DNA from: an uncultured Roseivirga sp.
GTDB lineage: Bacteria; Bacteroidota; Bacteroidia; Cytophagales; Cyclobacteriaceae
NCBI GenBank assembly: GCA_947493005.1
Contig: CANLOY010000001.1
Span: forward strand, 372,001 to 436,000
DNA length: 64,000 nucleotides
Direction of reading: 5' to 3'
Shown here: positions 3,823 through 20,070 of the stretch, in pieces
Position numbering within the stretch: position 1 is the stretch's first letter
Layout: every line of letters begins with the position of its first letter
Notes under the pieces: generated by a model
Seen by the model: the letters and a program-made list of their open reading frames with translations, nothing else
Database searches by the model: none
What the model was told of the DNA's origin: nothing
Made by a program: the position numbers and the translations under genes

Positions 3823-3835
3823 TGCGCTGAGCACG

Positions 3836-3843: not shown

Positions 3844-3923
3844 ACAAGTTTAAAGCGAATTGGTTTTGAATGAAGGGTACCAAAAGGGAATTCAAAATCG
3901 TTTTCGCACCGAATCACATTACT

Positions 3924-4238
3924 CTATTGTCTAAGCTTTAAGTATTCGTAACAAAGCTTTTCATATTCTTGTTTGGTAATTTCAATGGTATTAGGGTCTT
4001 CCAAATCTTTAAAAGAACTAACTCTACGCTCCAAACATGATCTTCCAGGCTTAATATAATCGGCATAAACACCATCTTTATCCCCTATAGTTTTGAGAAG
4101 CCGTATAGGTGTTCCATACCAGGTCTTATAATATTCGTAGCATATAAACTCTGCGCCCGAAACAGGTTCCGTACCATGGTAGCCATCGGGTAGACTCCAT
4201 GAGTTAAAATCTATTAATCCATGACTATTTCTTTCCAT
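3924..4238 (-). CDS. Hypothetical protein, 104 aa
   Basis: I do not recognise this protein. It is a small soluble protein rich in aromatic residues (repeated Tyr and Trp, for example FICYEYYKTWYGTP), with no signal peptide or membrane segment. It lies 18 bp downstream of an exported hypothetical protein on the same strand and is probably the last gene of the transcription unit starting at 5999. The ATG at 4238 is the first start in the frame. It is kept as a real gene because of its position and strand; it could be an effector-like or immunity-like partner of the upstream exported protein, but nothing in the sequence shows that. Confidence 0.55.
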   Translation of the reverse strand: MERNSHGLIDFNSWSLPDGYHGTEPVSGAEFICYEYYKTWYGTPIRLLKTIGDKDGVYADYIKPGRSCLERRVSSFKDLEDPNTIEITKQEYEKLCYEYLKLRQ

Positions 4239-4256
4239 AAAATATAGTACAACAAA

Positions 4257-5231
4257 TCATCGACATACCTCAGGGTCATCACACAATGCGTTGATAGCAT
4301 TTTCAAGTGAAGTATTATGTATAGAAACCCATTTAACTCTCTTCTTTTTCTTTCTATTGGATATGAAATCATGTATTGTATCTGCATAGAAAACTATGAG
4401 CGTCCCATACTCCATTTGAAAAGCATCATACATTTCACCTGATTTAGCCGGATCTCCTAGCCTTGACAAGGTCCGTTTTCTGCTTTTTCCGAAGAGCTTA
4501 ATAGAAGTATCTATTCCAAACTCTTTCTCGATAATGAAATAATTCGAAAAATAATTAATCTCAATACCATGTAAAGAAGGGATGTCTGACCAAACTAATT
4601 CATCTACAAACTTGGGAAATAGAAGCTGGAATTGCTCTTCTGTAAAATCAGGTCTAGCACCATTCAGAGTTCCATTTTTAAAATCAACGAACAAATCAAT
4701 TTTGGAATTATTCTCTATTTCAACCGAACCACAAGCATCTTCTATATGGCCTTTTCTACTCTTAGATTTTCTTAAAGAGGCAAGTTCAAAAGTACCAAAT
4801 TGTTCGGGTAGATTCCCCTTGCCTAAAATCCTGTAAGCCCCTTTTACTTCACCAGTGTTCTTAAACCACTTGATACTCGCTTCAAAGTCAGAAAAAGTGT
4901 CTTTTGGCCAACCACCAACATTGCTACAATCAAAAGTGCCTTTGAATGAAATCTTTACTCCTTCATCATTCTTAGCTACCACTTCCCCACAAGTAATGGC
5001 TTTTCCATACAATAGAATGTTATCCCATTCAAACAACCCCTGCAATTGCCCTGATCTAAGAGCTGTGATACTAAGCCTGATTTTTCCCTCTGTATAGCTA
5101 GTACGATTCAATGCGTCACCACGTGCTGTTAGTACAAGTTCATCCACTGAATGTTCTTGATAGGCCTGAAGCTCTAACGCTAAAGTATTAAACAGCGTAA
5201 CAAGCATTAATAATCTCTTTATTAGACTCAT
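4257..5231 (-). CDS. Exported hypothetical protein, 324 aa
   Basis: The protein begins with a probable signal peptide (MSLIKRLLMLVTLFNTLALELQA, cut around residue 23), so it is periplasmic or surface located. The body has alternating beta-strand patterns with glycine turns (LQGLFEWDNILLYGKAITCGEV, then a similar strand-rich block near GAYRILGKGNLPEQFGTFEL) and one pair of cysteines in the first third. No known domain is recognised. The start ATG overlaps the stop of the upstream lipocalin-like gene by 4 nt (ATGA), which argues for coupled translation and a shared role. Confidence 0.6.
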   Translation of the reverse strand: MSLIKRLLMLVTLFNTLALELQAYQEHSVDELVLTARGDALNRTSYTEGKIRLSITALRSGQLQGLFEWDNILLYGKAITCGEVVAKNDEGVKISFKGTFDCSNVGGWPKDTFSDFEASIKWFKNTGEVKGAYRILGKGNLPEQFGTFELASLRKSKSRKGHIEDACGSVEIENNSKIDLFVDFKNGTLNGARPDFTEEQFQLLFPKFVDELVWSDIPSLHGIEINYFSNYFIIEKEFGIDTSIKLFGKSRKRTLSRLGDPAKSGEMYDAFQMEYGTLIVFYADTIHDFISNRKKKKRVKWVSIHNTSLENAINALCDDPEVCR

Positions 5232-5575
5232 TTAACCAGTACTATATGCATTTCATCTTTCCCTATAAGCCCTTTGAGTACTAATTTTTCATCATAAAAA
5301 GGGTCAGGCATGAAGTAATACAGGCCTGTAAGCAGCCCACCTGCCTGATTCATATCTAAACGGATGTGATTAGGGTCCAGAATGGACCAGTTTCCTTTGG
5401 CCTCCTTCCGATCAACTTGCATAATGAAATCTCCATTATCTAGAAATTCGTAGAAAACTACCCTTTCCTCTGTAGGATCTTCTGTATCTATTACAATTCT
5501 TCCATTTGAAGCCATCGTCAGTAACTTCCATTCACCCAGGAATTGTTGGTTCTCAGTTTCTTTTTCGAAAAACAT
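5228..5575 (-). CDS. Lipocalin-like small protein, 115 aa
   Basis: The sequence opens with FLGEWKLLTMASNGR and continues with FLDNGDFIMQV and GNWSILDPNHIRLDM. This is the pattern of lipocalin-like / META-like beta-barrel domains found in many Bacteroidota proteins (first-strand G-x-W, then a regularly spaced strand and turn series). There is no signal peptide. It sits between a DnaJ-type zinc-finger membrane protein (7 bp upstream) and an exported protein (4-nt overlap downstream). The fold is suggested by strand pattern only; the ligand, if any, is unknown. Confidence 0.55.
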   Translation of the reverse strand: MFFEKETENQQFLGEWKLLTMASNGRIVIDTEDPTEERVVFYEFLDNGDFIMQVDRKEAKGNWSILDPNHIRLDMNQAGGLLTGLYYFMPDPFYDEKLVLKGLIGKDEMHIVLVK

Positions 5576-5582
5576 GTGACTC

Positions 5583-5999
5583 TTAACTATTTGTAGTGAA
5601 CAAGTAGATTAGCAATATGATAAAACCAACAACTATGATTACCTTATAAAGCTTGCTGGCTATGTACCCAGCAACCAAGCCTGCAATAATTGTAGCCACC
5701 CAGTTTTCCTCAGAATTTTGATAAGTAGCAACTGCAACAATTATAAATGCAATTAAACCAACAACACCTTGAGCTTTATCTTCTTTACCAGTAGATTTCC
5801 CACTAGGGACTGACTTTTTAGGTTTTGATTTTGGAGGTACCCGTTTAACCGGGTCGGGAACAGTAATTCTACCTGTTCCATTGCAAGTATAACAAGTTTG
5901 CTCACCATGCCTGTAGTATGACGAGCTGGTCTGGATTTTCTTAGAGTAATCTGTAATTAGTCCTCTTCCTCCACAAGTTCCACATGTTTCAGTTGCCAT
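5583..5999 (-). CDS. Membrane protein with DnaJ-type zinc-finger motifs
   Basis: The N-terminus holds two CxxCxGxG motifs, CGTCGGRG (residues 6-13) and CYTCNGTG (36-43). These are the paired half-sites that bind one zinc in the central domain of DnaJ/Hsp40. A lysine- and proline-rich linker (about 50-72) follows, then three hydrophobic segments (about 78-93, 100-115 and 119-134). There is no J-domain, so this is not a co-chaperone of the DnaJ class. It is best described as a membrane-anchored cytosolic zinc-ribbon-like domain of unknown job. It is probably the first gene of the unit that continues with the lipocalin-like, exported and 104-aa genes. Confidence 0.65.
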   Translation of the reverse strand: MATETCGTCGGRGLITDYSKKIQTSSSYYRHGEQTCYTCNGTGRITVPDPVKRVPPKSKPKKSVPSGKSTGKEDKAQGVVGLIAFIIVAVATYQNSEENWVATIIAGLVAGYIASKLYKVIIVVGFIILLIYLFTTNS

Positions 6000-6171
6000 T
6001 ACTTTTAATTAGTTTGAATCAAAACTCAACTGGTTATTAAAGGTCGAATAGCCATCAATTTCGAAATCTAAAACGGGTGATGCACCTAATTTGCAGAATA
6101 GCCAACAAGGGCAGTCAAATAGCCAACCAAGCTGTTGTTTTATTCAATAAAGGACATTGTCAATCTTCAGC

Positions 6172-6705
6172 TCAATTACTCAATCCGTTGGTATTAATAT
6201 TTCTCATTGCAATTCTCATTACCTCATTGGGATCCTGTTCTTCAAAGCGTTCGAACAACATATTATGTATATGCTCCAATCCCTCTAATTGATCTCGAGA
6301 AGATTTGTCAACTATAAAATGAAACATCATTAAATAAACCAGAATCTCCTTTCTCACCTCAAATGGCAATCCAATGGACATCTCAGTAAGTCCATCACAT
6401 GTATAATACATGAACTCACCCTCCGGCATTTCTTCTAGGTTAGACTTCATATCAAACAGAATATCCTTTACATCTGAAGGTTTCATCTTCATTTGCATTA
6501 CATCAATAGAAAAAAGAAGTTGAATTTGACTAGCTTTATTTAGTATCAGAGAATCAATCCTGCGATCAATCTGCCCTATAAGAATTAAACAGTGTCCCAG
6601 AACAGTCATTGATTGCTGATAAAAAGTCATGCCTGTAGCCTGGTTAATCGAATTAGGACTAATACCGTTCGGCATCTTTGGCTTCAGAAAGTCGAAAAGG
6701 CCCAT
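6172..6705 (-). CDS. Hypothetical protein, 177 aa
   Basis: I do not recognise this protein. It starts MGLFDFLKPK, an opening common in small cytosolic Bacteroidota proteins, and the rest is predicted helical with many Met and Asp/Glu residues (for example the stretches near SIDVMQMKMKPSDVK and EVRKEILVYLMMFHF). There is no signal peptide. It is 39 bp downstream of the 638-aa exported protein on the same strand and is probably the last gene of the run that starts at 11177. A TerB-like helical bundle is possible from the helical pattern, but no diagnostic residue supports it. Confidence 0.55.
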   Translation of the reverse strand: MGLFDFLKPKMPNGISPNSINQATGMTFYQQSMTVLGHCLILIGQIDRRIDSLILNKASQIQLLFSIDVMQMKMKPSDVKDILFDMKSNLEEMPEGEFMYYTCDGLTEMSIGLPFEVRKEILVYLMMFHFIVDKSSRDQLEGLEHIHNMLFERFEEQDPNEVMRIAMRNINTNGLSN

Positions 6706-6744
6706 TTTTTCTACTCATTTTTTTCTTTGATATATCAATCAACT

Positions 6745-8661
6745 CTATTTTAACTTCAATGGCCTTTCATCATTAATGAATCGAATCAGGTTTTCCTCAA
6801 ACCTATCTATTGCCTCACTACCACATCCATTAAGCCTCAACATTTTATCTAAGTCCTTTATTATATCCATTACTATTCTTTGTGTACCCATGGTCTCTTC
6901 CCTATTAACCAGCAATTTTAAAGCGGTTCCTAAAGCCTTTTTGTCTATATTACTTTTAACCTTGTTATGAGCTAAAAAGAGCTTTTTGGAAGTATAAAGC
7001 CCAGATGGCCTGTCTTCCCAATCGGAGCAAGAGCGATTAACCACTACACCATACCCATTTCTGGTGACTGTTTCTTCAACGCATACTTCATCCATAATAG
7101 GGACAACATCTGATTTAGGTATATGGCTCACTCCGCATTTAACCGCTCTTTTGCGCATGAACTGATTGGCAATTGCACCAATCACTATGTCGTCTATCCA
7201 GCTATAGGATTTCATTACATCGAACCTACCTCTATAAATAAGACTCAGTGCGATGTCGATATCTTCATCTTCTCGATTGGTTTCAAAGTCTCTGGTTTCC
7301 AGAAAAAAACCATTGCTCTCCATTGACTTTTCTCTTGAGAGATCATAAGCATCTATAGTTGCCTGAATGCGTTCTTCTTTCTCTTTTCGCTTTCTTTTAT
7401 AGTAAGCATGATATTCTTTTTCTGCAGTAGGAGCTTTTCCTTCCAGATAGTAATTTTTGAACTTTTCGTTATCCAAACTCACCTCAAATGTTTGACTTCC
7501 TTTGGGCACTTCTATTTTGTCCCCAGATTTGATTAACATTTCTTTCTGATGGTTGAATTGGTCATGAGAAGAAATATCATTACTCAGCATATCATTCACA
7601 GACCCATTTACTCCATAAGCTATTACCCTTTCTACAGTGGCATTAAAAAAGCCACCTCCGGCAAAATCCAACCTTAGTCTATTAAAAGGAAGCTCCTTTT
7701 TTGTGTTGGACTTAAAGACTTCAAACAGGTGAACACCATCAGGAAGGTTTTCCATCAGCCTGAGGTATACCTCTCCTTCAAGGGGATTTCCTTTTGGGTA
7801 CTCTATTTTAAGCAGGTTATCAAATTTATTCTCGGTTCCATTGCCCTTAGAAAATTCATCCTGCCACTTAAATCGTGCGCCCAAGAGTCTGATCTTAATA
7901 CCATCTTTTTCATAGTAGTCAATGTCAATATTCACACTTCCTTTATTTGGAATCCATCTCTTAATTCGGCTTTCCAGGGTAGAATTTTTCCGCTGCCATT
8001 TACCAATCAAGCTATGTCGTTTTTGCCTTTCAAGATCTGCCTTTCTCAATTCTTCAATTCTCTTATCTGCAAATCGCTTTAAGTCCAGGAGTTCTGCAAT
8101 AGACTTCTTATTGACTTTGTTATTGTTTAGGTAGTTCAGAAATTCCTCATCGGGTACATTGCTTAAAAAGAATTCTGATAGCTTAAGAGGCTTGGTTTTC
8201 TTCTGCCTTATTCTTGAAATGATGTCCTTCTCTTCAAAACTGCCAATTTCAAGGTCATAAAGCTCAGCTCGTTTCATATAAACATACTTTATGGATTTAG
8301 CATCAGTAGTTGACTTGTATGTATTGACAATTTTCTGAATCGACTTTGGGTTTACTTTACCTCCCCTATAACCCTCAATAAGTCCGGTATCAAAAATCAG
8401 TTCATGAATCTTCTTCTTTTTATAAGTTTCAACATACTTTGTAAACTGTATAAATTTGCCTCGGTTATACCTTTCAGGTACTTCATAAATGATGCTGTAT
8501 GAATTTATTAGCACCTCTTTTTTTTCAGGTTGCCTACCTTCTTTTTTTACAATAGGCATGTTAATCTTAGCTTCTATATCAACTATTGAAAGTTCTTTTT
8601 GACAATAGCCGGAAAAAACAGAGCCTATTATTAATGAAAAGATTAATACCTGCTTTCTCAT
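6745..8661 (-). CDS. Exported hypothetical protein, 638 aa
   Basis: A clear signal peptide (MRKQVLIFSLIIGSVFSGYC, cut near residue 20) shows export. The first third is charged and helical. The middle (about 230-400) looks strand-rich, with LFEVFKSNT and LRLDFAGGGFFNATVERV. The last third is again helical and holds several cysteines. No known family is recognised. The start codon shares one base with the stop of the upstream 730-aa lipoprotein gene (TAATG), a tight coupling that suggests the two proteins act together. Base composition is similar to the neighbours, so recent transfer is not evident. Confidence 0.6.
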   Translation of the reverse strand: MRKQVLIFSLIIGSVFSGYCQKELSIVDIEAKINMPIVKKEGRQPEKKEVLINSYSIIYEVPERYNRGKFIQFTKYVETYKKKKIHELIFDTGLIEGYRGGKVNPKSIQKIVNTYKSTTDAKSIKYVYMKRAELYDLEIGSFEEKDIISRIRQKKTKPLKLSEFFLSNVPDEEFLNYLNNNKVNKKSIAELLDLKRFADKRIEELRKADLERQKRHSLIGKWQRKNSTLESRIKRWIPNKGSVNIDIDYYEKDGIKIRLLGARFKWQDEFSKGNGTENKFDNLLKIEYPKGNPLEGEVYLRLMENLPDGVHLFEVFKSNTKKELPFNRLRLDFAGGGFFNATVERVIAYGVNGSVNDMLSNDISSHDQFNHQKEMLIKSGDKIEVPKGSQTFEVSLDNEKFKNYYLEGKAPTAEKEYHAYYKRKRKEKEERIQATIDAYDLSREKSMESNGFFLETRDFETNREDEDIDIALSLIYRGRFDVMKSYSWIDDIVIGAIANQFMRKRAVKCGVSHIPKSDVVPIMDEVCVEETVTRNGYGVVVNRSCSDWEDRPSGLYTSKKLFLAHNKVKSNIDKKALGTALKLLVNREETMGTQRIVMDIIKDLDKMLRLNGCGSEAIDRFEENLIRFINDERPLKLK

Positions 8662-10853
8662 TATTTTCCTTTTAAATACTTGACACTAAAATCTTCCACA
8701 GCTTCCTTAACTAGTGAAACTCTACTCGTACTCACCTCATCCGATACGCACATTCTGCTTCTTCTGTGGGTGTAAACTGAACCGGGGTACCTATACCAGT
8801 CTCCATTCAGTAGAATCAGGCAATTTTTGAGAATCACATTGGCATCTCCTAATACTACAAACACATCTTTGCCTGAATCATCGGTCATGTCGTAGCCTTT
8901 AGAACTAATAGAATGTAAGATGGAAGCCTGATCAACACCATAGTTATCTTTCTCAGCAAAAAGAACTCCCAGCTTTTTCAGTCGAACATTCCAACCTCCC
9001 AAATAGGATTTGTAGTCATTTTGATTCACTCTATTGATTGACTTGAGCCATGAAAGACTGCCGTTTGAACTCTGGCTTTTCATGTCGATAGATGATGACT
9101 CATCGAATATTTTCTCAACAACTTTAGACCACTCTTCTTTTGGCGTTGCAGATTGCTTAATAAATGGTTTGGAAAAGACATCTGACAAAAGATCACTCAA
9201 TGTGATTTTGTAACCATTTCTAAGCCTGGTAATCTCATTTGTCTTTATCAGGTAAGAATTGGAAATACTATTGATTATGGTTAATCCATTAACAATTTCT
9301 CCGTTGTAGTATTTCAACCCATAAGTATAGAGCTGTACCCGAATGTTGGAACCGGTAACATTGGTACTAAAATTTTCGTCACCATTGCTCTTCTTTGAAT
9401 AAAAAGTCCCTGCCTCTTTATTATCAATCAGTTCAAGAATGACATCAGCATCTTCTGATACTTTAATACCAACTCTTTCGAGCATGTTGATTACTTCTGT
9501 CTTGTCTGCATAAACTGATCTCAGTCGAAAATCTAACTTCACTTCTCTGATTTTTCCTAGAATTTCTTTTGAAGACAAGGCTTGAGACCTTGATAGATTA
9601 GCAAAAACATTGACATTAGATTTATCTGTTCTCCGTTCCAGAATTACTTCTTTAGATAATGATGCAACTTTTTCCAGGAGCTCTTCAACTGCTTTATCAT
9701 CACTTATCAAGTTTCCATATTTCCTTTTCACTCGTTCAATACCTGAAAAACTAGATTGACTATTCATTTCAATCAATATGGAGTGCCTGTTGGATGTAAC
9801 CATGGACTTACGAATCGATAGGTAGTCCTTCCACAGTTGTTTGACCAAACCATGCTCCCTGAAGAAATCATATTCCTTTAAGTTATTGTCGTAGTGAGAA
9901 GCCCAGCTCTCCATTTTTTTCCAGTTTTTCAAGCTAAGACCAAGCGATTTCAAGTGGTCAAGTTCTTGACCGACCAAAGTGGCTGTTCCCATCTCAAAGG
10001 CGCTTTGAACTTTTCTTTCTATCTGGCTTCTTCTTTCTACATCCAGAGAATTAATCTCACTTACATAAGTACCTCTGAAATCACCTAAGCTTCTAAGCTT
10101 TGTATAAAGCTCATGCTTGCTTAAAATGCTGCTCAATTGCTTCTCCAGATACTTAGCCGTTTCAGTTCTTTCTTCCTCAACAGCCAAGCCTCTTTGTCTT
10201 TCTAACGCATTTGTTAGGTTATCTACTTCGGTTGGGTAAACTTTCCCTTTATGATCGGAGATCAGTTCGATGATAGCGTTTTCTTCATCAAGCATGACTT
10301 CATTACTTGCGTTGAGTTTATCCGAAAGCGACACAATTCTATTCCTGTAATTGGAGTAAACAGAAAGGTTAGATTTAGATATTAGCTGTAGCTCCTGATC
10401 GTTGGGTCTGTTGAATACAACATACTTTGTATTCTCTTTTGCGTTGTACTTTCTCAGCCATTTCTTTTGATCTTCAGTCTGAACCGGGATAGGCTCCTTT
10501 ATTTGCTCTTTCCTCTTACGACTGTTAAATATGCCATCGTAAATCCACAGCGATAAAACACCAAAACCTGCAGCAGCGATTATCTCATTATCATTAGGGT
10601 TGTTTTCCTGATTGTTTGCCAAAACCTCATCTCCAACATTCCAACCTACAAATGCTGCACCAACCATTGCACCAAACATTGTGACTTTATATGGTGCCCC
10701 CTTGTGCTTTTTCCATTGTGGAGTTACAGATTTAATTTCGGGGGTGATATACTTCTCATTTGACAAAACTGCCTTTTGTGAAAGGCAGGAGGTAAACAAT
10801 GAAAGTATGACGATACTGAGGAGGATAAATCGTTTCATATATAATCGAATCAT
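8661..10853 (-). CDS. Large lipoprotein of unknown function, 730 aa
   Basis: The start MIRLYMKRFILLSIVILSL leads into FTSC, a lipobox, so the mature protein is lipid-anchored at about Cys23 (Cys18 if the ATG at 10838 is used). A second hydrophobic glycine-rich part follows at about residues 55-105 (MFGAMVGAAFVGWNVG and AAAGFGVLSLWIYDG) and could be a membrane hairpin. Residues 180-420 are strongly helical and charged, coiled-coil like, with RQRGLAVEEERTETAKYLEK as an example. The C-terminal half is more strand-like. No domain is recognised. It lies 9 bp after a small membrane protein gene and is coupled (TAATG) to the exported 638-aa gene. Confidence 0.6.
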   Translation of the reverse strand: MIRLYMKRFILLSIVILSLFTSCLSQKAVLSNEKYITPEIKSVTPQWKKHKGAPYKVTMFGAMVGAAFVGWNVGDEVLANNQENNPNDNEIIAAAGFGVLSLWIYDGIFNSRKRKEQIKEPIPVQTEDQKKWLRKYNAKENTKYVVFNRPNDQELQLISKSNLSVYSNYRNRIVSLSDKLNASNEVMLDEENAIIELISDHKGKVYPTEVDNLTNALERQRGLAVEEERTETAKYLEKQLSSILSKHELYTKLRSLGDFRGTYVSEINSLDVERRSQIERKVQSAFEMGTATLVGQELDHLKSLGLSLKNWKKMESWASHYDNNLKEYDFFREHGLVKQLWKDYLSIRKSMVTSNRHSILIEMNSQSSFSGIERVKRKYGNLISDDKAVEELLEKVASLSKEVILERRTDKSNVNVFANLSRSQALSSKEILGKIREVKLDFRLRSVYADKTEVINMLERVGIKVSEDADVILELIDNKEAGTFYSKKSNGDENFSTNVTGSNIRVQLYTYGLKYYNGEIVNGLTIINSISNSYLIKTNEITRLRNGYKITLSDLLSDVFSKPFIKQSATPKEEWSKVVEKIFDESSSIDMKSQSSNGSLSWLKSINRVNQNDYKSYLGGWNVRLKKLGVLFAEKDNYGVDQASILHSISSKGYDMTDDSGKDVFVVLGDANVILKNCLILLNGDWYRYPGSVYTHRRSRMCVSDEVSTSRVSLVKEAVEDFSVKYLKGK

Positions 10854-10862
10854 AAGGTATTA

Positions 10863-11177
10863 TTAACCAAAAACTCCCATCCAGATGAGACTACCAATAA
10901 CTAATAGTACCCAGAACCAATACTCCATTCTAATCCAGAAAAGCGTACTCAAGGGAATTATTTCGACCTTAGGATTTTCTCTATTATCAAGGGCTGATTT
11001 GTAAGTTTGAATATTCCATTTTCGGCCCAGAATGAGACTCACTATTGCTGTAGCATAACAAGCAATAGCTGCCGTAATATTATCAGTTTCCTCTAAAGGG
11101 GTTAGAAATATTATACCCCAAAAAAATACATTGAAGAATACTAGGATCAGTATTCCCTTACCTGACCAAACTATCAT
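10863..11177 (-). CDS. Small membrane protein, 104 aa
   Basis: The protein has three hydrophobic segments: residues 8-26 (ILILVFFNVFFWGIIFLTP), 34-51 (ITAAIACYATAIVSLILG) and 82-103 (YWFWVLLVIGSLIWMG). The charged loop between the second and third is probably cytoplasmic. The family is unknown. It is the first gene of the probable unit 11177 to 6172. It could be a membrane anchor or partner for the large lipoprotein encoded 9 bp downstream, which is an inference from spacing. Confidence 0.6.
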   Translation of the reverse strand: MIVWSGKGILILVFFNVFFWGIIFLTPLEETDNITAAIACYATAIVSLILGRKWNIQTYKSALDNRENPKVEIIPLSTLFWIRMEYWFWVLLVIGSLIWMGVFG

Positions 11178-11297
11178 AAGGCATTCATCTATTGGTGATA
11201 AAACTTATTAAAGCTAGTTCATGAGTATATGGATAGGCAGCACTAGTCATTATTGCCAATAAACCACTTGATTTAGGCAACAAAGCCGCTAATGCAA

Positions 11298-12203
11298 TCA
11301 ATAAAATTGATCAAGGAATACCATTCGACTTTTATCAATCTGAAAGGATTTAAAACTTGATCGAAATCTCTTTTCTCTGAAGTAGATGGCCCTAAAACCT
11401 TCTGCACTCTTTACCTCCTCATGATCCTTATGGAAATACACTCCATCAATTACATAGTGCTCCGGTAATCCTATCTTGTTGCAATTGCAGAGGTATTCAA
11501 AGTAGATATGATCTTTGGTCAACCAGACAATGGTATTCTCCGATTGAGAAAGTCCAATATGTGGCCTTTTCATTATTATTTCTCCCTCCTGATAATGATA
11601 TGTCATGCCTAGAAGATAGAATTCTCCGTCCCACTCGATTAGATAATTCAACCCAATACCATCTCCTATAAAAGCACTTTGATAGGCTCTTAGATAAGCT
11701 TCTTCTGTGCCTATCCGAAAGGTTTTGTTAGTTTTAACAGGCCTCAACCATAGGTGATTGACTTCATCATTTCTCCATTTTCCAAACCACTTTCCTGAAA
11801 ATTTCTTCAGCGTATGCCTGTTTTCTTTAAATCCACCCCAACCGCTACTGAAGCTTGGTTTATGGTTATCTTCAATTTCAGATTCGATAAGCGTATCGTA
11901 TACCCGGAAAAAGTGAGATTGAAGAGAATCTCTATTCCATTCTTTTTCTTCAATTATTTTCTTTAACAAATGTGCAGAGCAAGCCAAGCCCTCTCGAAAC
12001 ATTATTTGAAAATGTTGCTTATTCAGGTAAGTCAGTAATTCGCTTTTTGCAGGTTTTCTTATTCTATTGTATTGCCTATGCGAAGTTTTGAATTTCTTAA
12101 GATTAGTAAGTGAAATAGTCTCACATTCAAGTTCATGCTTATGTTGACCTTGAACATTCCATGAGCTTATCAAAATCAGCAAAACAAAAAGATACTTCAC
12201 CAC
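11298..12203 (-). CDS. Exported hypothetical protein, 301 aa
   Basis: A signal peptide (MVKYLFVLLILISSWNVQG, cut near residue 19-20) is followed by a helical charged part and then, from about residue 130, a strand-rich part starting KKFSGKWFGKWRND. The G-K-W-x-G-x-W repeat is reminiscent of the first strand of a calycin/lipocalin-like barrel. No family is recognised with confidence. It is separated from the downstream 104-aa membrane gene by 120 bp that hold no gene. A 7-bp inverted repeat (TAGTTTC / GAAACTA, 12207-12226) lies 3 bp upstream of the ATG. Confidence 0.6.
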   Translation of the reverse strand: MVKYLFVLLILISSWNVQGQHKHELECETISLTNLKKFKTSHRQYNRIRKPAKSELLTYLNKQHFQIMFREGLACSAHLLKKIIEEKEWNRDSLQSHFFRVYDTLIESEIEDNHKPSFSSGWGGFKENRHTLKKFSGKWFGKWRNDEVNHLWLRPVKTNKTFRIGTEEAYLRAYQSAFIGDGIGLNYLIEWDGEFYLLGMTYHYQEGEIIMKRPHIGLSQSENTIVWLTKDHIYFEYLCNCNKIGLPEHYVIDGVYFHKDHEEVKSAEGFRAIYFREKRFRSSFKSFQIDKSRMVFLDQFY

Positions 12204-12330
12204 TTGTAGTTTCTAGGTTGAAACTAGCGGATCAGCTTTGGCATCTTATATAAAAAGACCTTTACCCAATAAGGAAGCTCTTTTGATCAATAAAGCAACT
12301 TAGTGGATCAATCAATTAGGTGCTCTGCTT

Positions 12331-13083
12331 CTATAAAGAGTTAAACCTGGCTATTAGCTGAGCTCTGTAAATAGGTGAAAGTTTCAACTGGGTTGGAGTT
12401 TCCTTTAATACAAGCATCTTCTCCTTGGTAATGTTCCTTTTGGAGTCAACAATCTTACTCAGCTTGTTGATGTTAATGGCATGCGACCTGCTTATTCTTT
12501 GCATTGCATTTGTAACCGATGAGACTCGTGACATAAAGTCCTTCATATGCGTAGAAACTACAACTGGTTGTTCTTGTGTAGTTATATAGACCTTTGTGAC
12601 ATTTCCATCAGCCTCTAAGTAAACAATATCTTTTTCAACATCGAGGTTATAAGTAGCAGTGGTATTTCTTATTAAAAAATTGCTATCTCTTTTAGATCTG
12701 GTTTGCGAAGGTTGAATGTCTAGCGAACTCAAAGCATTTTTCAATGCGACCTTGAGTTCATTATTCGTCACTGGTTTACTTAAATATGTTTTGGGGTAAC
12801 CAGCAGCATCAATACGATCAAAAACCTCCTGATCGTCTTGTGTACTAGTCACAAAAATGATCGGTACTTGTCTACTCTCATTAAATCTATCAGCTACATC
12901 AATACCTGTCATTGAATCTTCTTCCAGACTAATATCACATAATGCAATATCGGGTGTGGCAGAAAGTGCCTCTTCTGAAGATCGCGCAGCTACTATTTCA
13001 CAATCCACAAACTTATTGACGCGATCGCACAAATCTTCCAGCAAAATACTTCGGTCTTCTAGTATGAGTATTGAAGGTTTCAT
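12331..13083 (-). CDS. LytTR-type response regulator
   Basis: The 250-residue protein has an N-terminal receiver domain (about 1-120) with acidic pair Glu9-Asp10, phospho-acceptor Asp50 in LCDISLEE, switch Thr79 in FVTST and the conserved Lys103 in LSKPV. The C-terminal part (about 145-245) is a LytTR DNA-binding domain, seen in VYLEADGNVTKVYIT and in RISRSHAININKLSKI. It therefore binds DNA after phosphorylation. The gene overlaps the upstream sensor-kinase gene by 4 nt (ATGA), so the two form a cognate pair. Its targets are unknown; the inverted-repeat-rich region at 15490-15690 is a candidate by proximity. Confidence 0.9.
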   Translation of the reverse strand: MKPSILILEDRSILLEDLCDRVNKFVDCEIVAARSSEEALSATPDIALCDISLEEDSMTGIDVADRFNESRQVPIIFVTSTQDDQEVFDRIDAAGYPKTYLSKPVTNNELKVALKNALSSLDIQPSQTRSKRDSNFLIRNTTATYNLDVEKDIVYLEADGNVTKVYITTQEQPVVVSTHMKDFMSRVSSVTNAMQRISRSHAININKLSKIVDSKRNITKEKMLVLKETPTQLKLSPIYRAQLIARFNSL

Positions 13084-15182
13084 TTCTTTATTGGGATTAC
13101 AATTCTGTATTCAACACCCTCCTCTGAGCTAGTAATCACGTTACCATTGAGGTCGTTAACCAACGAAACTACCAATTTACTATAGATATTGTCTTCATAT
13201 CCATTCCTATCCTTCAATTGGGCATTATCAAAATAGTGAAGGTTTATCTTTCCACTTGATTCATTCAATTCTATAGCCATTCGATCAGCTCCATTAGGAA
13301 TAGCATGCTTAATATAATTTATACAGAGTTCGTTTACAATCAGGCCAATAGACAGTGCTATATCTGACTTTATTGTAATCTTATCAACACTAAGGTGATA
13401 ATCCAAATCTTCATTATTGAGTTGCATGGAATCCGGAACAATCGACTCCAGGTATTCTTTGAGGTCAATCATAGCTGTTCCCGAATAGTTCTTTAATTGC
13501 TCTTTGTAAAGTATTCTTGACAAACCTGTAAGACTGCCGATCTTGGTGTTCACTTCAGTCAAGAGTGATTTGTTCTCCGATGACTCTGCCTCTCTTTCCT
13601 CTAATCGAAAGATTGCCCTTAGCAACTCAAATGAATTGAATTGGTTATGCAGAATTCCATTTTTAAGATTTACAATTCTTTCATTTAACCGAACAAGGCT
13701 TTGGTTTTTCTTGATACTATAAGCCAGAAACAACATGACGATAACTAAAAGCATTATGGCTACACCTAATAGCAGTTTTCTGGATTCGGCAATATCTTCT
13801 TGCAGTTCATTGGTCTCCAGCAATAGTTCCTTTTCTTTCTCAAGTTCCAAAGTTCTCAACCTTACCTCAGTAGCTGCAACAAACTTCTGTCTCTTCTGGC
13901 TTCCATCTAATCTCAAAAGCGAATCTCTCTCATCCATAAATAACTTATAGGACGACAGGTCATTTGATAGGCTGGCAATTGTCGCTTTCAATTCCATAAT
14001 GTTGGCCTGTTGGGAAAGGTTATCAAATTGCTCGTTTAGGGAGTCAGCCAAAGCAAGGTAGTCAACTGCCTTATTCAAGCTTATACCTAAGTTCAGCTTG
14101 GCTAACGCTATTGCTGTTTTGGAGAGGTTAACTGAGCTTTTATCTCTATTCCAGATTTCAAACGCTTCTGAAAAATACCTATTTGATTTTTTTTCATCTG
14201 ATTCGGAAAAGAGTTTTCCTAAATTGAATAAGGTGAAAGCACGTCCCTTCTTATCGTTTATTTGTGTTTTTATCTTTAAGGACTCATCCATAAAATGAAA
14301 AGCCGAGTCGAAATAGGCAGATGCTCTCTCATTATTGTAAAGTCCTAAATAGGCATCGCCAATATTGTTTAATACTCTGGCATACTTTGCCGAATCCATT
14401 CTCTTCTTCAAGAGATTTTGTGCCCTAAACCCAAGAGTCAAGGCTCTATCGTAATCTCCATTCTTAATAAGATTTATTCCTGATTGATAGAGCGAAGAAA
14501 TGTATTGAACCGAATCTTTTTTAGATAAGGCCAACTCAGCGGCCTTCTCATAAGAAACCGAAGAGAGGTCGTGCAAATCCAATGCAGCATATTGAATACC
14601 GAGGTAGTTTAAAGTCTTGATTTGCATAGTCGTGTCGAGAGTACCTTTAAATACTTCAAGCGCATTCTGGTATACATCGATCGTTTTTCCAATTTCAGAT
14701 TTGCGTTCGTAAAGCAGTCCCAAAGCTGAATATGTAAAGCCTTTTAACTTTGGGTTAGGTTGAAGATCGCTTTTGCTCAAAGCATCCATAAGAAAAGCTT
14801 CTGCCTCAGGATACTTTCTCTGATAAATGTGAGTCTGGCCTAACTGAATAAGAGTAGAAACTTCCCACTCCTTATTATCCAAGTTCCGTGTGATATCCAG
14901 CAGCTCCAAATAAACATTGTCTGCCATCGCAAACTTTTGGAGTGACTCGTAGAAATAACCTAAAAAGTATCGTGTTCGGATTCTTCCATCCTCGTTGTTC
15001 AGACTATCAGCCAACAACACATTTTCTTTTAGAAAAACCTCTCTCTGCGAACCTTGGAACTGCCATGATTGAGAAACAACCTCTTTGAAATCTATATCAT
15101 CAAGTCTCGTCTGGCAATTTGAAAATGCCAGCAGGCATAAAATGCCTGAAACAACAATTCGGTATTTTTGGTTGAGCAACAT
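13080..15182 (-). CDS. TPR-containing sensor histidine kinase
   Basis: The N-terminus resembles a lipoprotein signal (GILCLLAFSNC, Cys23). Residues about 40-400 are tetratricopeptide repeats, visible as repeated A-L-x-L-G-x-x-Y patterns such as KLKGFTYSALGLLYERKSE and ARVLNNIGDAYLGLY. A charged helix and one membrane segment (about 465-487) follow, then the kinase core: a candidate phosphoacceptor His512 in LHNQFNSFELL and the N-box VNELCIN with Asn617. This is the build of Bacteroidota TPR kinases of the HisKA_2-like type that pair with LytTR regulators. The H-box is divergent, so the exact histidine is tentative. The TPR domain should face the periplasm and sense a protein or peptide. Confidence 0.85.
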   Translation of the reverse strand: MLLNQKYRIVVSGILCLLAFSNCQTRLDDIDFKEVVSQSWQFQGSQREVFLKENVLLADSLNNEDGRIRTRYFLGYFYESLQKFAMADNVYLELLDITRNLDNKEWEVSTLIQLGQTHIYQRKYPEAEAFLMDALSKSDLQPNPKLKGFTYSALGLLYERKSEIGKTIDVYQNALEVFKGTLDTTMQIKTLNYLGIQYAALDLHDLSSVSYEKAAELALSKKDSVQYISSLYQSGINLIKNGDYDRALTLGFRAQNLLKKRMDSAKYARVLNNIGDAYLGLYNNERASAYFDSAFHFMDESLKIKTQINDKKGRAFTLFNLGKLFSESDEKKSNRYFSEAFEIWNRDKSSVNLSKTAIALAKLNLGISLNKAVDYLALADSLNEQFDNLSQQANIMELKATIASLSNDLSSYKLFMDERDSLLRLDGSQKRQKFVAATEVRLRTLELEKEKELLLETNELQEDIAESRKLLLGVAIMLLVIVMLFLAYSIKKNQSLVRLNERIVNLKNGILHNQFNSFELLRAIFRLEEREAESSENKSLLTEVNTKIGSLTGLSRILYKEQLKNYSGTAMIDLKEYLESIVPDSMQLNNEDLDYHLSVDKITIKSDIALSIGLIVNELCINYIKHAIPNGADRMAIELNESSGKINLHYFDNAQLKDRNGYEDNIYSKLVVSLVNDLNGNVITSSEEGVEYRIVIPIKK

Positions 15183-15189
15183 AGTTTAG

Positions 15190-15212
15190 CCCTGCACTTT
15201 TGAAGTGCAGGG
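15190..15212 (-). other. Intercistronic hairpin directly before the kinase start codon
   Basis: CCCTGCACTT and AAGTGCAGGG form a perfect 10-bp stem with a 3-nt loop. On the minus strand it lies between the small lipoprotein stop and the kinase ATG (15182), ending 8 nt before that ATG. No run of T follows, so it is not a classical terminator. It probably lowers kinase translation or protects the lipoprotein message; that role is inferred. Confidence 0.6.
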
Positions 15213-15239
15213 TGGTTAAATATATTACAATTCGAGAAG

Positions 15240-15428
15240 TTACGAATTACCACACTGTGTACAATTACCCACCGTAGAATCCGGATCATCATAGACATAA
15301 TCTCTGATATCCGTATCCTTCAGTTCTGAATCGTCCAGCAATGGTCTGATATCTTCTTCCGGACTGGAGCATGCTAAAACCATAGTAGCCAATACTCCCA
15401 CCACAAGCAATAATCTTTTCCTAAGCAT
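15240..15428 (-). CDS. Small lipoprotein, 62 aa
   Basis: The protein is MLRKRLLLVVGVLATMVLAC..., with a lipobox ending at Cys20, so the mature part is only about 43 residues and is lipid-anchored. It is very acidic (SSPEEDIRPLLDDSELKDTD) and ends in CTQCGNS, a CxxC pair that could form a disulfide or bind metal. It is the first gene of the run lipoprotein, TPR kinase, LytTR regulator, 57 bp ahead of the kinase. It may be a ligand, an accessory sensor or a secreted peptide precursor read by the TPR domain; none of these is shown by the sequence. No family is recognised. Confidence 0.6.
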   Translation of the reverse strand: MLRKRLLLVVGVLATMVLACSSPEEDIRPLLDDSELKDTDIRDYVYDDPDSTVGNCTQCGNS

Positions 15429-15690
15429 TGAATTTAGTTCAGGAGTTCTTATTGCTTATTGCGGCTAACCCAATGATGCCTTTAGCGCTGAGCGGTGCGT
15501 ATCACCGATTGGATTCTCTTTGCTATTTAATAAGCCACACTAAATAATAACCTGACAATGTCAGGTCACTCATTCGCCATATGCGAAAACAGATCTGAAT
15601 TTGTTAATCGACAAAGGCGAAATACCATATTAAAGAAGAGTATAGTGTAACTTTTCCAGTAGGAACACTGGATTTCCAAATGGAAATCTA
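15429..15690. promoter_or_regulatory. Divergent intergenic region with four short inverted repeats
   Basis: This region lies between the outward-facing lipoprotein/kinase run and the CHAT operon. It holds CGGTG-n5-CACCG (15493-15507), CCTGAC-AAT-GTCAGG (15551-15565), TTCGC-n5-GCGAA (15573-15587) and GATTTCC-AAAT-GGAAATC (15671-15688). The last covers the upstream ATG of the CHAT gene. They are candidate operators or leader hairpins. I find no exact TAnnTTTG element in either direction. Confidence 0.5.
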
Positions 15691-18064
15691 CAATTTGAAG
15701 TGTATGAAATTAGAATTAGATATTGTCTGGCATAAAATTATGACGCTCACAATAGTGATTCTTCTATCTATAAATGATGGAGTTTCCCAATCAGCTGTTG
15801 AGCAACGGGAACAGTTTTTTCTGGAAGCACTTCAGCATCCTGAGAATATAAAAGAACAGATTAATGGCTACGCCCAGTATAAGAATGATAAAGATAAACA
15901 GGAGTTGTATCGAATATACCTGCTTACTAAAGGTCTTATAAACTTTGAAGATTCTCTGGAATCAAAAATTGATGAGAAGTATAAGCACCTCATGGATTCT
16001 GTTAAAAAGCAGCATGAGAACAATCAGTTTCTTGAGCTTGTAACCAACCAAGTTCGTCAATTGGAGTCCATAGACAAACAGAATCAATTACATGCATTCA
16101 AAACAAGTTTGAATCCAAAGTTTAGAAATGGAATGACAATTCATTTTGACCCTGCTGTATCGTTCTATCTTCACGCCTTTTTGCCGAGCCTAAGATTCAG
16201 AAAGTCCTCTCGACTAGAAAACGATAAACTGAATAAAATAGATCAAACCATTGGTCAGCTTATAAGTGTATCTCCTAATATCCAAGAACTCTCAACATCA
16301 TTTTATTTTTCTGGGCATCAAAACAGAAGTAATTTTATAAACAGTCTAAATGCCAACCTGAACGAAGTTTATGATTACTTTGTGAGATCAGTTTTATACT
16401 TGAATCAGGAAAGCAAAAGAAATTTTGCCCAACCAGTTTATGCACTAAAAAAAGGCACTGCATTTGTAAAAATCTTAAGGCCTATCTCCGACTTTATTGA
16501 AAAACATGTGCCTGATTTGGAGTATCAATATTATGCCATCATATATAACAGCACACCTCCTTTTACTCGCTTAATATATTTGGGAAATGGCCCCAAGTTA
16601 GAAAAGGAGTTCTACCAAGAATACTTTGATAACTATGCCAACCCATATAGTTCAGGTAGACTGGATGAAGATTTTTCATACAAAAGGTATTGGGAGGCCA
16701 TAGAGCAGAAGTTACCAAAGAACGTCAATCAACTATTTTTTCAAGCACATGGAATTTACAATAAAGTAATGATAGAAGCTCTTGTGAACCCTAATGGGAA
16801 TTTCATTGGAGACTCCATTGATATCATAAGGAACTTTGAAATCAACTCAGACCAGATAAGACCTCTTAGGAAATCTTCTAAAAGATCGAATAAAACTTTT
16901 GATCTTTTCGGTTTCCCGGATTATGAAAGACTCACTCTCGATTCATTACCTACTAAACCTAAATCTTTTGCCGAAATGGTGCTCAGTCAATTAGATAGTG
17001 ACAAGTCGCAAAAAGAAAAAGATCAGGAAATGCAGGCCTGGGGTCAACAGAATCTGGAACGGGCTTTTAATAATAAAATAGAAGAAAGAAGAACACAGGA
17101 TAGCTCTTTAAACATTAATCAGGAAAAAGCACTTTACGATTGGGTACAAAAGTCTAGTGAATACAAAAGTATTGATCCCGGACTCCCAAGTGAATCGGAT
17201 AGCACACTCAGCCCTCTGTTAATGAGCAAATATGAGATCAAGGTTCTGAATAAGATTCTTCTTGACAATGGTTTTACAGGAAATTACTTTCTGGATACAC
17301 TAGCTACCGAAAAAAACATTAAAAAGGTTGAATCTCCAACGGTATTACACATATCAACTCATGCTGAAAATGATAAGCCATCAGAAGTTGGATCGTTCGC
17401 ACCTGACGAAACCAAGTTATTTCTATCTGGCGCATATTATAATTTGAATAAAGAATCTGTATTTAAAAGCATAGAAACTGAAAAATCTCAAGTCGCGGAA
17501 GAATATAATTCAAGATATAGTGCATTAATGGAACAGCATATTTACACAAAAGAATTACAAGAGTTAATGCTCAATTCAAGGTCAATAAAAAGTAAAAAGG
17601 CAATCAAAGATTATTTTGATTCTGTAAATATTATTTTAGAAGGACAAAAGCCACCAGGCGAATCGTTGATCCAAAAATATCAGGATCGGATTTACAACTT
17701 TGCCTTGCAAGATGGGGCTCTAGATAGTAAAGAGATTGAAGAACTAAGCCTTTCAGGTACACAAATTGTTACATTAGCGACTTGTGGCCCTATCAATCAA
17801 TATATACCTGAGTATCATACTACTAATATTGCAGAACTCTTTCTAAATGCGGGAGTAGGCCATGTGGTTGGCAGTTTCTGGCCTGTAAATGATGAAGCAA
17901 CGACAGCATTTATGCTTAAGTTTTATAAACATTGGCTAGATGGGAATTCGGAAAGAATGGCTCTGAAGAAGGCACAAAAAGATATAAGAGAAATTCCACA
18001 GTTCAATCATCCTTATTTCTGGGGTGGATGGATGGTCTATTCTAGGTTTTATTTTAATCATTAA
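15680..18064 (+). CDS. Exported CHAT-domain protein (caspase-like)
   Basis: The C-terminal third is a CHAT domain (caspase HetF associated with TPRs). The His motif is VLHISTHA (His561), the Cys motif is VTLATCGP (Cys702), then VVGSFWPVNDEATTAFMLKFY, ALKKAQKDIR and the typical ending HPYFWGGWMVY. His561 and Cys702 should be the protease dyad. The dyad is about 140 residues apart, much more than usual, because of a helical insertion. The first 500 residues show no TPRs, which is unusual for the family. A hydrophobic N-terminus (IMTLTIVILLSINDGVSQS) suggests export. Starts at 15704 or 15740 are alternatives, since the ATG at 15680 lies inside an inverted repeat. The stop is 3 bp from the next gene. 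Confidence 0.8.
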   Translation: MEIYNLKCMKLELDIVWHKIMTLTIVILLSINDGVSQSAVEQREQFFLEALQHPENIKEQINGYAQYKNDKDKQELYRIYLLTKGLINFEDSLESKIDEKYKHLMDSVKKQHENNQFLELVTNQVRQLESIDKQNQLHAFKTSLNPKFRNGMTIHFDPAVSFYLHAFLPSLRFRKSSRLENDKLNKIDQTIGQLISVSPNIQELSTSFYFSGHQNRSNFINSLNANLNEVYDYFVRSVLYLNQESKRNFAQPVYALKKGTAFVKILRPISDFIEKHVPDLEYQYYAIIYNSTPPFTRLIYLGNGPKLEKEFYQEYFDNYANPYSSGRLDEDFSYKRYWEAIEQKLPKNVNQLFFQAHGIYNKVMIEALVNPNGNFIGDSIDIIRNFEINSDQIRPLRKSSKRSNKTFDLFGFPDYERLTLDSLPTKPKSFAEMVLSQLDSDKSQKEKDQEMQAWGQQNLERAFNNKIEERRTQDSSLNINQEKALYDWVQKSSEYKSIDPGLPSESDSTLSPLLMSKYEIKVLNKILLDNGFTGNYFLDTLATEKNIKKVESPTVLHISTHAENDKPSEVGSFAPDETKLFLSGAYYNLNKESVFKSIETEKSQVAEEYNSRYSALMEQHIYTKELQELMLNSRSIKSKKAIKDYFDSVNIILEGQKPPGESLIQKYQDRIYNFALQDGALDSKEIEELSLSGTQIVTLATCGPINQYIPEYHTTNIAELFLNAGVGHVVGSFWPVNDEATTAFMLKFYKHWLDGNSERMALKKAQKDIREIPQFNHPYFWGGWMVYSRFYFNH

Positions 18065-18067
18065 TGA

Positions 18068-18745
18068 ATGCGTAAAATTCTTCTCACCGTTCTCTGTTCA
18101 TTTTCGTTGCACTATTCTTTTGCTCAGGAAATAGCGCTCAAGGAAACTGTTGATGTTAGTTTGAAAACAGTGTTTATTGGGAATCGTCAGTTTCTAATAT
18201 CTGATGACTGGAGTACTATACCTGTCGATTCAGAAGATAGAGAAGACATGAACAGCCCTAAGTTTGGTGGGAAGTTTTATCCAATGCGTAATCGCGATGG
18301 TTTGAATGAAAAGAGGGTATCTATTGCCAACCAGAACATGGAGGTTTGGATAGATGTAAAAAACGAAACTACCAAGACTTGGAAACTACATGCTGTCAGC
18401 ATTGAAATCTCAGATCAGTATAGGCTCGACTTAATTGGTACCATCGAACAAGGCATTTGGAGAAACTATACTTCTCGATTAAATCAATACAGCCCAAGGA
18501 TTGTTATTTCAAAAAACGCTGATTCAAAGGTTGAGAAAAAGTCAACGAAGCCTGTTTTCATCAAACCAGTTGGAGGCAATACCGATAACAGATTTTCAAT
18601 TCGATTATTAAACAATTCAAAAGAACCCGTTGAAGGTCTGGTATATCAATTCGACATTGTTATGACACTGGTAAATACAGACGATCTTGAGGAAGTAATC
18701 GAGGTTAAATCTGACAAACACTACTTTTTAGGATTTCAGAAATGA
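18068..18745 (+). CDS. Exported hypothetical protein in the CHAT operon, 225 aa
   Basis: A signal peptide (MRKILLTVLCSFSLHYSFAQ, cut after about residue 19-20) shows export. The mature 205 residues are predicted mostly beta-strand, with patterns such as MEVWIDVKNETTKTWKLHA and VYQFDIVMTLVNTDD, consistent with one or two immunoglobulin-like sandwiches. No catalytic motif or known family is seen. It begins 3 bp after the CHAT gene stop and its last 4 nt overlap the next gene (ATGA), so it is an integral part of the operon. A substrate, inhibitor or adaptor of the CHAT protein is plausible but unproven. Confidence 0.65.
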   Translation: MRKILLTVLCSFSLHYSFAQEIALKETVDVSLKTVFIGNRQFLISDDWSTIPVDSEDREDMNSPKFGGKFYPMRNRDGLNEKRVSIANQNMEVWIDVKNETTKTWKLHAVSIEISDQYRLDLIGTIEQGIWRNYTSRLNQYSPRIVISKNADSKVEKKSTKPVFIKPVGGNTDNRFSIRLLNNSKEPVEGLVYQFDIVMTLVNTDDLEEVIEVKSDKHYFLGFQK

Positions 18746-20007
18746 ACCAAATTCTAGAAAACACCGAATATAAAAAGCAAGTCAGCATTGCCGTAGAGCA
18801 ATACAGTGAAGTCTTACTCCATCTTGTAAAAAGAAGTTATTTCCAGAAATCAATAGAAAAGGGCTCTTCTTTAACGCAAACTGATATCTTAAATCTGGTC
18901 AATACTCTTTTTGGGCATTATAAAACTAATGCACATTACAAAAACAGAAGTAAATCCATATTATCTCTGATTTATGGGTCAAGTTCCAAAACCAACAGTG
19001 CTACGGCCAATGACATCTATAAGTACTTATTAGCTAGTGAAGCCCAAGATTCAAATGATAGAGCAAAAGAGTTACCGCAATTTGATGTAAATCCCTTCAG
19101 GGGTCTGGTTGAATTTCTCAAAAATGTTGCTCCCAGTAAATCCGATTACTCATTGAAGCTTGCCATCTCAGTTTTTGGTATTGACATATCAAAAGAGTCA
19201 TTATTAGTAGCCACAGACAATTTAGAGACTCTCAAAAGTGAGTTAAACTCACTTCAGGATCAACTGAACCTCATCAAAGAGCCTGGCAGGCTTGTAAGCG
19301 AATTAAAAAAACTGAAAGACTCCGTTGCCAACGTTCATGAGAAGAACATAGAAGCTGAGAATTCTATTCTTTCCATAAAAAAAGATGTCGAAAAATCTGA
19401 AAACCTAAATGACGAACTAAAGAAAAAATCAAGGAAAAACACCATACTGATTTACGTGATTGTAAGTATGATAGTTGGTGGGCTAGTGAGTTTGTTTCTT
19501 ATCTACCAACCTGCCCATGAAGGTATTACGATGCTGGACATTGAATTATCAAATCCTATTCCTGTATCCAATCAAACTTTTCACGAGGAGTTTCTTTTGG
19601 AGGGAGTCTTAAACGATTCTAAAAGCGTTAACAAACAATTACTCAACTTTAAGTTGAGTAATTATACATCAAGTAACCCCTTTTTTATTGATGCCATTTC
19701 ATTGAAAGTTATTGGCTCACCGAGTAGAATTTCCGCAATAGAGCACATCAAAGAAAGACAGGTTGATTCTCTTCATTTTCTATTAAACAAAAAAGCCAAA
19801 TATTACTCTATCAAAACTTTTTCAGAAGATGGAAAAAGTAACCCAATAGCTCCCAAAGAAAGCACTTTCTTCTCTTTACAAGTTGGAGGAATTAAGGATC
19901 TCAAAAATCTTGAGTTCGCCTTTCAAATTATTATCGAAGGGCACGATAGTCAAGGAAAATCGATCAGTCTTAATTCCCCCAAAGATTACTCTATTATTTT
20001 CAGATAG
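18742..20007 (+). CDS. Coiled-coil membrane protein in the CHAT operon, 421 aa
   Basis: The N-terminal 150 residues have no signal peptide and are helical, so they should be cytoplasmic. A heptad-rich coiled coil follows (about 155-228, for example NLETLKSELNSLQDQLNLIK), then a single membrane segment (about 234-256, TILIYVIVSMIVGGLVSLFL) and about 165 strand-rich residues outside the membrane. The layout resembles a transmembrane signal transducer that links an outer-facing sandwich domain to a cytoplasmic coil. No family is recognised. The outer domain would be in the same compartment as the exported CHAT and 225-aa proteins. It overlaps the 225-aa gene by 4 nt and ends at a strong terminator. 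Confidence 0.65.
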   Translation: MNQILENTEYKKQVSIAVEQYSEVLLHLVKRSYFQKSIEKGSSLTQTDILNLVNTLFGHYKTNAHYKNRSKSILSLIYGSSSKTNSATANDIYKYLLASEAQDSNDRAKELPQFDVNPFRGLVEFLKNVAPSKSDYSLKLAISVFGIDISKESLLVATDNLETLKSELNSLQDQLNLIKEPGRLVSELKKLKDSVANVHEKNIEAENSILSIKKDVEKSENLNDELKKKSRKNTILIYVIVSMIVGGLVSLFLIYQPAHEGITMLDIELSNPIPVSNQTFHEEFLLEGVLNDSKSVNKQLLNFKLSNYTSSNPFFIDAISLKVIGSPSRISAIEHIKERQVDSLHFLLNKKAKYYSIKTFSEDGKSNPIAPKESTFFSLQVGGIKDLKNLEFAFQIIIEGHDSQGKSISLNSPKDYSIIFR

Positions 20008-20019
20008 CCTTTAAACTAA

Positions 20020-20050
20020 AAAGCCTGTCTACCAAAGGCAGACAGGCTTT
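20020..20050. terminator. Bidirectional rho-independent terminator
   Basis: AAAGCCTGTCT and AGACAGGCTTT form a perfect 11-bp stem with a 9-nt loop, flanked by A on one side and T on the other. It sits between the convergent CHAT operon and the TonB-dependent receptor gene and can serve both. Confidence 0.9.
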
Positions 20051-20070
20051 TGTATCAGTTTTGGTAAGTA

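Follow-up and report, generated by a model that had tools for sequence, protein, structure and literature searches.

An operon for an apparently exported CHAT protease and two partner proteins suggests an envelope-signalling gene cluster in Roseivirga

Introduction

Bacterial CHAT proteases are known mainly from intracellular defence. An operon in an uncultured Roseivirga sp. raises the question of what such a protease might do when it appears to be exported, and with which partners it would act. We analysed a stretch of 64,000 nucleotides of contig CANLOY010000001.1 (positions 372,001 to 436,000; hereafter the window), in which a CHAT peptidase gene is followed by two further genes, here called gene 2 and gene 3. 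The results suggest an undescribed envelope-signalling cluster around an apparently exported caspase relative and its two partners. Our tentative reading, to which we give an appreciable chance short of even, is that of an envelope-sensing module whose exported caspase-fold protease is exchangeable. The operon consists of the following genes.

15680..18064, plus strand: CHAT peptidase gene, 794 amino acids (open reading frame call and PF12770)
18068..18745, plus strand: gene 2, 225 amino acids, probably an exported and probably a beta-rich protein
18742..20007, plus strand: gene 3, 421 amino acids, with a helical part, a coiled coil (by eye), a membrane helix at about residues 235-253 and an outer domain

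An operon with an apparently exported CHAT protein

An earlier note on this DNA had described three closely packed genes, the first for a CHAT-fold protein with His561 and Cys702, an N-terminal export signal and no TPRs in its chain. The coordinates of the open reading frames (ORFs) bore out the layout, with a 3-bp gap between the CHAT gene and gene 2 and a 4-nt overlap of gene 2 and gene 3. The CHAT assignment was confirmed by a Pfam match of the 794-residue protein to PF12770 (E-value 2.3e-31; 109.8 bits against a curated cut-off of 24) and by an alignment of 42 rows from 34 loci, from which six loci repeating others or the window had been dropped. As sequence positions, H561 corresponded to His in 32 of 32 aligned rows (31 loci) and C702 to Cys in 34 of 34 (34 loci). 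The protein also reads as exported, because its only strong hydrophobic stretch is N-terminal (19-residue peak at position 13, score 1.81). On the TPRs the note was partly right: no Pfam TPR family matched the chain up to E 1, but residues 118-437 were 29% identical to one TPR-CHAT relative, so its N-terminal part has something in common with that kind of protein.

The dyad stands in a changed setting. The residue after the catalytic His is Ala in the window protein (HA) and Gly in 31 of the 32 relative rows (HG), and the Cys motif reads ATCGPI in place of SACETG, whose S and A occur in 34/34 rows; neither of these motifs of the Cytophagales relatives is kept. Of the alignment's 57 columns with at least 90% conservation, the window protein keeps 39. 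His and Cys are 141 residues apart, compared with 64 in relative L041, against which the window protein has about 60 extra residues before His and 77 after it. A charged segment between the two catalytic residues (about 17386-17707 in the CHAT gene) has no counterpart in the aligned relatives and is possibly a control loop.

Relatives of the CHAT protein were found at E 1e-10 in 110 of the 291 genomes of the order sample, and among the matches listed most span the C-terminal CHAT part. Four relatives considered in full have signal-like N-termini by eye, and one of them, L039, contained many TPRs when scanned. CHAT relatives are thus widespread in the order, and neither the CHAT protease nor its export is new; what is new lies in the partners. 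The window's own 4.88-Mb genome has only four CHAT-like places. Searches with the CHAT protein gave no match in NCBIfam, PADLOC or genome contigs, and four weak matches among solved structures (best E 0.25), where a profile of four other CHAT proteins found none. The structure model of the CHAT part alone was poor (predicted local distance difference test score, pLDDT, 35).

Two partners with an apparently related domain

Gene 2 had been described as encoding an exported, beta-rich protein, and both properties are retained here as probable. Its start is signal-like by eye, with no 19-residue stretch reaching 1.5, and the beta-rich call combines a reading of the sequence with a poor structure model (pLDDT 51). 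The protein matched nothing in Pfam, NCBIfam or PADLOC, and plasmids held no homologue. The single-pass membrane topology proposed for gene 3 held up better: one strong hydrophobic stretch spans residues 235-253, with five Lys or Arg before it and none after. Its coiled coil, called by eye, gave one weak PADLOC match, and three NCBIfam matches to gene 3 were all far below their cut-offs.

One rare, unnamed domain appears to relate gene 2 to the outer half of gene 3, a link that comes to light through a homologue. The outer part of a gene 3 homologue in genome G033 matched both gene 3 (BLASTP, 3e-9) and gene 2 (4e-6). A hidden Markov model (HMM) of gene 2, made from four other genomes without the window, found the window's gene 2 at 4.4e-34, and it also found the proteins of G033 (8.9e-17), G123 (3.8e-16) and G148 (3.4e-14). 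The gene 3 homologues of G033 (WTJX01000429.1) and G148 (JAAFHK010000135.1), which belong to other families, are 31% identical over their length.

In the set of seven gene 3 proteins, each member has a helical part, a main hydrophobic stretch and an outer domain. Lys and Arg are more frequent before the stretch than after it in six of the seven, with a tie in G1072; a second hydrophobic stretch occurs in G1072 and G1218, and the peak in G148 is weak. The best Pfam E-values were 0.015 in this set and 0.0085 in the gene 2 set (n=5), each from one member, and the gene 2 set had no match in NCBIfam. Searches of solved structures yielded nothing for the gene 2 set and a single match (E 0.085) for the gene 3 set. 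The idea of a helix-turn-helix in gene 3 was dropped, as Pfam gave it no support among the seven members.

A recurrent neighbourhood with a two-component pair

The domain is rare. Profile searches found it in 1 of 395 genomes of the phylum sample (the window's own), in 6/291 of the order sample and 6/270 of the family sample, in two of 13 genomes of G148's family and in one of two of G033's. With the G033 protein as query, the class sample likewise returned only the window's own genome (1/395). After partial matches in G009 (inside a 1516-residue protein; order sample) and G1024 (in a 1021-residue frame; family sample) had been dropped, the non-overlapping total was eight genomes: G000, which is the window's own, G250, G1072, G1218, G1219, G033, G148 and G123. 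A contig search with the gene 3 pair returned only the G033 and G148 loci, already known, and viral contigs gave no match.

In four of the eight genomes (G000, G250, G1072 and G1218), gene 2 precedes a membrane-protein gene, and the two are arranged divergently from genes for a TPR histidine kinase and a LytTR regulator. The second gene of G1218 gave a profile match at 4.0e-5. G1219 has gene 2 alone, with no protease or kinase in the six neighbouring ORFs scanned, and the G033 contig ends 428 bases beyond its gene 3 homologue. The window's side of this arrangement is as follows.

15429..15679, no strand: divergent intergenic region, by its position the presumed site of regulation
15240..15428, minus strand: tiny lipoprotein ORF, 62 amino acids, with same-place ORFs in three other loci (L062, L074, L075)
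15190..15212, minus strand: RNA hairpin between the lipoprotein ORF and the kinase start
13080..15182, minus strand: TPR sensor histidine kinase (HisKA_2; Pfam), 700 amino acids, hydrophobic peak at 470
12331..13083, minus strand: response regulator with LytTR (PF00072 and PF04397), 250 amino acids

The kinase and regulator ORFs are adjacent and overlap by 4 nt, as a two-component pair. The window's kinase is 21-25% identical to the same-place kinases of the three other genomes and its regulator 29-30% to their counterparts; among themselves, these three relatives share 31-33% (kinases) and 43-47% (regulators). No convincing repeat or promoter was found in the intergenic region 15429..15679.

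Each of the four divergent loci has, 5' of its kinase gene, a lipobox ORF of 47-62 residues and, between this ORF and the kinase, a stable hairpin. The lipoprotein rule had been widened after it missed the window's ORF (Leu allowed at one place, spacing relaxed). The widened rule gave nine ORFs in the 322,527 bases of 17 loci, which included the four divergent loci themselves, and five of the nine fell in the four intergenic regions, which total 2.5 kb. A second lipoprotein ORF was seen in L074 at 9056-9190. The fold z-scores of the hairpins were -5.33 in the window, -5.99 in L062, -3.87 in L074 and -4.64 in L075, with stems that differ in sequence. We infer that the hairpin may be an attenuator giving more lipoprotein than kinase.

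A clan-CD protease lies nearby in four of the eight genomes, in one of them as a weak match; it is CHAT in the window and Peptidase_C14 in the other three. The Peptidase_C14 gene is 4.6 kb from gene 2 in G1072 (E 9e-22) and 0.7 kb from the gene 3 homologue in G033 (E 4.7e-20). Both Peptidase_C14 matches of G033, a genome 84% complete, are on the 13-kb contig of the gene 3 homologue; of the two, the nearer shares 41% identity with the G1072 protease. The three Peptidase_C14 matches of G123 are all on contigs other than that of its gene 3 homologue, and the G000 and G250 genomes have none. The G250 cluster carries a Peptidase_M48 gene instead, and the G1218 contig ends too soon to show a neighbouring protease.

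Two further gene families with signal-like starts are common to the G033 and G250 loci. One is unnamed (L037 8074-8688 and L062 13132-13788; 30% identical); the other (L037 6182-7081 and L062 13819-14595; 23% identical) has DUF5683 in the G033 protein.

A variable chromosomal stretch

The whole cluster lies within a stretch that is absent at this site in four congeners.

3866..20018, no strand: stretch of about 16 kb, containing the whole cluster

Of the genus's 18 other genomes, four (L048-L051) were compared, chosen for their TonB-receptor gene, which is 74-88% identical. In these four, the gene at 3040-3834 directly adjoins the TonB-receptor gene, and homology to the window stops at about 3866 and 20018 at furthest. 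At 1e-60 a search of the genus (19 genomes) found the kinase in the window's own genome alone. No integrase was found among the ORFs of at least 150 residues in the stretch, and a check for phage origin with PHROGs gave one weak match for gene 3 and none for six other proteins. An 11-base direct repeat (3918-3928 and 19985-19995) lies near both ends, inside the boundaries, and may be due to chance. Also in the stretch are ORFs of 301, 730, 638, 324 and 177 residues, none of them with a significant Pfam match; by eye, the starts of the first four are signal-like.

The congeners also bear on the strong terminator with which the operon had been said to end. A hairpin is present at 20033-20052, 3' of gene 3. 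Because the operon-less congeners show a hairpin in the same place (by eye), 3' of the TonB-receptor gene, the terminator is probably that gene's own and shared with the operon. A terminator scan counted three, which is close to the shuffled mean of 2.4. No RNA families were found within 3000-23500, and no tRNA in the whole window.

Discussion

The observed basis for an envelope-sensing module is its gene content, the domain common through homologues, the recurrent neighbourhood and the dyad residues. In the mechanism that we propose, the TPR histidine kinase would sit in the inner membrane and sense an extracytoplasmic cue; the tiny lipoprotein may be the kinase's ligand or regulator. The LytTR regulator would then turn on the divergent operon, which would yield a caspase-fold protease, presumably exported and active (CHAT here, Peptidase_C14 in the relatives), together with two partners: one soluble, the other tethered to the membrane, with an outer domain related to the first and a helical end in the cytoplasm. 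The protease might cut the products of gene 2 and gene 3, or be recruited by them, and the state of gene 3 might be relayed inward to the cytoplasm. Taken whole, this chain, in which a kinase with a tiny lipoprotein signal controls an exchangeable exported protease that cuts a soluble and tethered pair and so passes information back across the inner membrane, would be a form of bacterial signalling not described before, and it is unlikely to be right in every step.

The earlier note had put forward a periplasmic signalling or envelope-response module and named co-occurrence of the three genes as a check. The module is partly supported by the pair divergent from the TPR kinase and LytTR regulator in four of eight genomes, and Peptidase_C14 near the genes in three others (one weak) points the same way. 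The co-occurrence check cut both ways: gene 2 keeps a neighbouring membrane-protein gene in four of eight, and CHAT stands with the pair in one genome of eight. This single occurrence and the lack of a clan-CD protease near the genes in three of the eight (G250, G1219 and G123) are the strongest points against our reading, and several others weigh on the same side. The Peptidase_C14 match of G148 is weak (E 6.8e-6), lies 2.2 kb away and is not among the eight matches listed for that genome, which carries several such genes elsewhere. The gene 3 homologue stands alone in G033, G148 and G123, where no kinase pair was seen. The second gene of G250 resembles gene 3 weakly (BLASTP 0.013; hhalign probability 14%) and that of G1072 has no sequence support (hhalign 0.8%), so that both are counted as counterparts mainly by place and topology. 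Gene 2 and gene 3 did not match each other directly in either direction, and the gene 2 HMM did not find the window's gene 3 at E 10. A repeat search found no LytTR binding site shared by the loci. Finally, the CHAT protein may be inactive, because HG has become HA and SACETG has become ATCGPI; alternatively, retaining the dyad in altered surroundings would fit a shift in specificity.

A rival reading confines the module to the kinase pair and the two partner genes, and takes the CHAT gene for a chance or recent addition without shared function. The single co-occurrence in eight genomes and the abundance of CHAT relatives in the order (110/291 at 1e-10) agree with such an addition. It is harder to reconcile with the 3-bp gap between the CHAT gene and gene 2, with the mere four CHAT-like places in 4.88 Mb, and with the other clan-CD proteases near the genes in G1072, G033 and, weakly, G148; we regard it as doubtful, yet a serious contender. 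Gene 3 might instead be a membrane-bound regulator that senses by its outer domain, while the protease merely turns its product over. RodZ and CadC have a comparable layout, and the three-part build recurs in all seven proteins, with the Lys/Arg bias in six and the tie in G1072. No DNA-binding family, however, appeared among the Pfam matches of the seven, and the second hydrophobic stretch in G1072 and G1218 and the weak peak in G148 fit poorly, which leaves this explanation rather improbable.

Two further explanations concern attack and defence. It might attack neighbouring cells while gene 2 and gene 3 shield the producer, as could suit the variable nature of the 16-kb stretch and the several unknown proteins encoded there; metacaspases have been proposed to act on neighbours (available part of PMC3501461). 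We think this improbable, since G250 has the pair without a clan-CD protease and no toxin or secretion family was found by Pfam in the ORFs of the stretch that were scanned. Even less can be said for an anti-phage cell-death system akin to Craspase or gasdermin operons, suggested by a CHAT domain in an accessory stretch. The export-type N-terminus of the CHAT protein speaks against it, as does PADLOC, which gave no match for that protein or gene 2 and, for gene 3, the weak one to its coiled coil. The Pfam scan of the same ORFs found no family of the gasdermin, CRISPR or NTPase kind, and the chance of such a system is slim indeed.

Comparison with known systems

The closest likeness of the CHAT protein is to the TPR-CHAT proteins of Cytophagales (PF12770), with which it has in common the fold, the dyad, the signal-like N-terminus (in four relatives, by eye) and the match over residues 118-437. 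Unlike them, it has no TPR match, carries extra segments around His, has altered HG and SACETG motifs and comes with a dedicated partner pair. Craspase, a type III-E gRAMP with TPR-CHAT, likewise has a His/Cys CHAT peptidase, and its substrate is encoded nearby according to the available part of PMC9729208. In contrast to the window's locus, Craspase is RNA-activated by its target and gRAMP-bound, and it has no kinase pair or partners like gene 2 and gene 3. No gRAMP or Csx30 match was given by Pfam in the ORFs scanned, and no CRISPR array was among the 20 of 41 repeat families listed for 3500-20200.

Prokaryotic metacaspases (Peptidase_C14) have the clan-CD fold. Their genes lie near the homologues in G1072, G033 and, weakly, G148, whereas the window carries CHAT and its own genome has no Peptidase_C14 match. 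Many of them have an N-terminal helix, perhaps a signal peptide (available part of PMC3501461). With known TPR histidine kinase/LytTR pairs, the window shares the domain make-up of both genes; its locus adds a divergent gene 2 operon, with the tiny lipoprotein ORF and the hairpin 5' of the kinase.

No description of such a cluster was found in the open literature, as far as its accessible text goes, with preprints and most subscription papers outside this scope. CHAT proteases, metacaspases and LytTR pairs are already known; what appears new is that they are combined with this partner pair. For an apparently exported CHAT protease, the cluster points to probable partners, a probable regulator pair and a small, previously unlisted lipoprotein, so that its function can now be tested directly. 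CHAT and caspase proteases might also be interchangeable, one replacing the other within one module.

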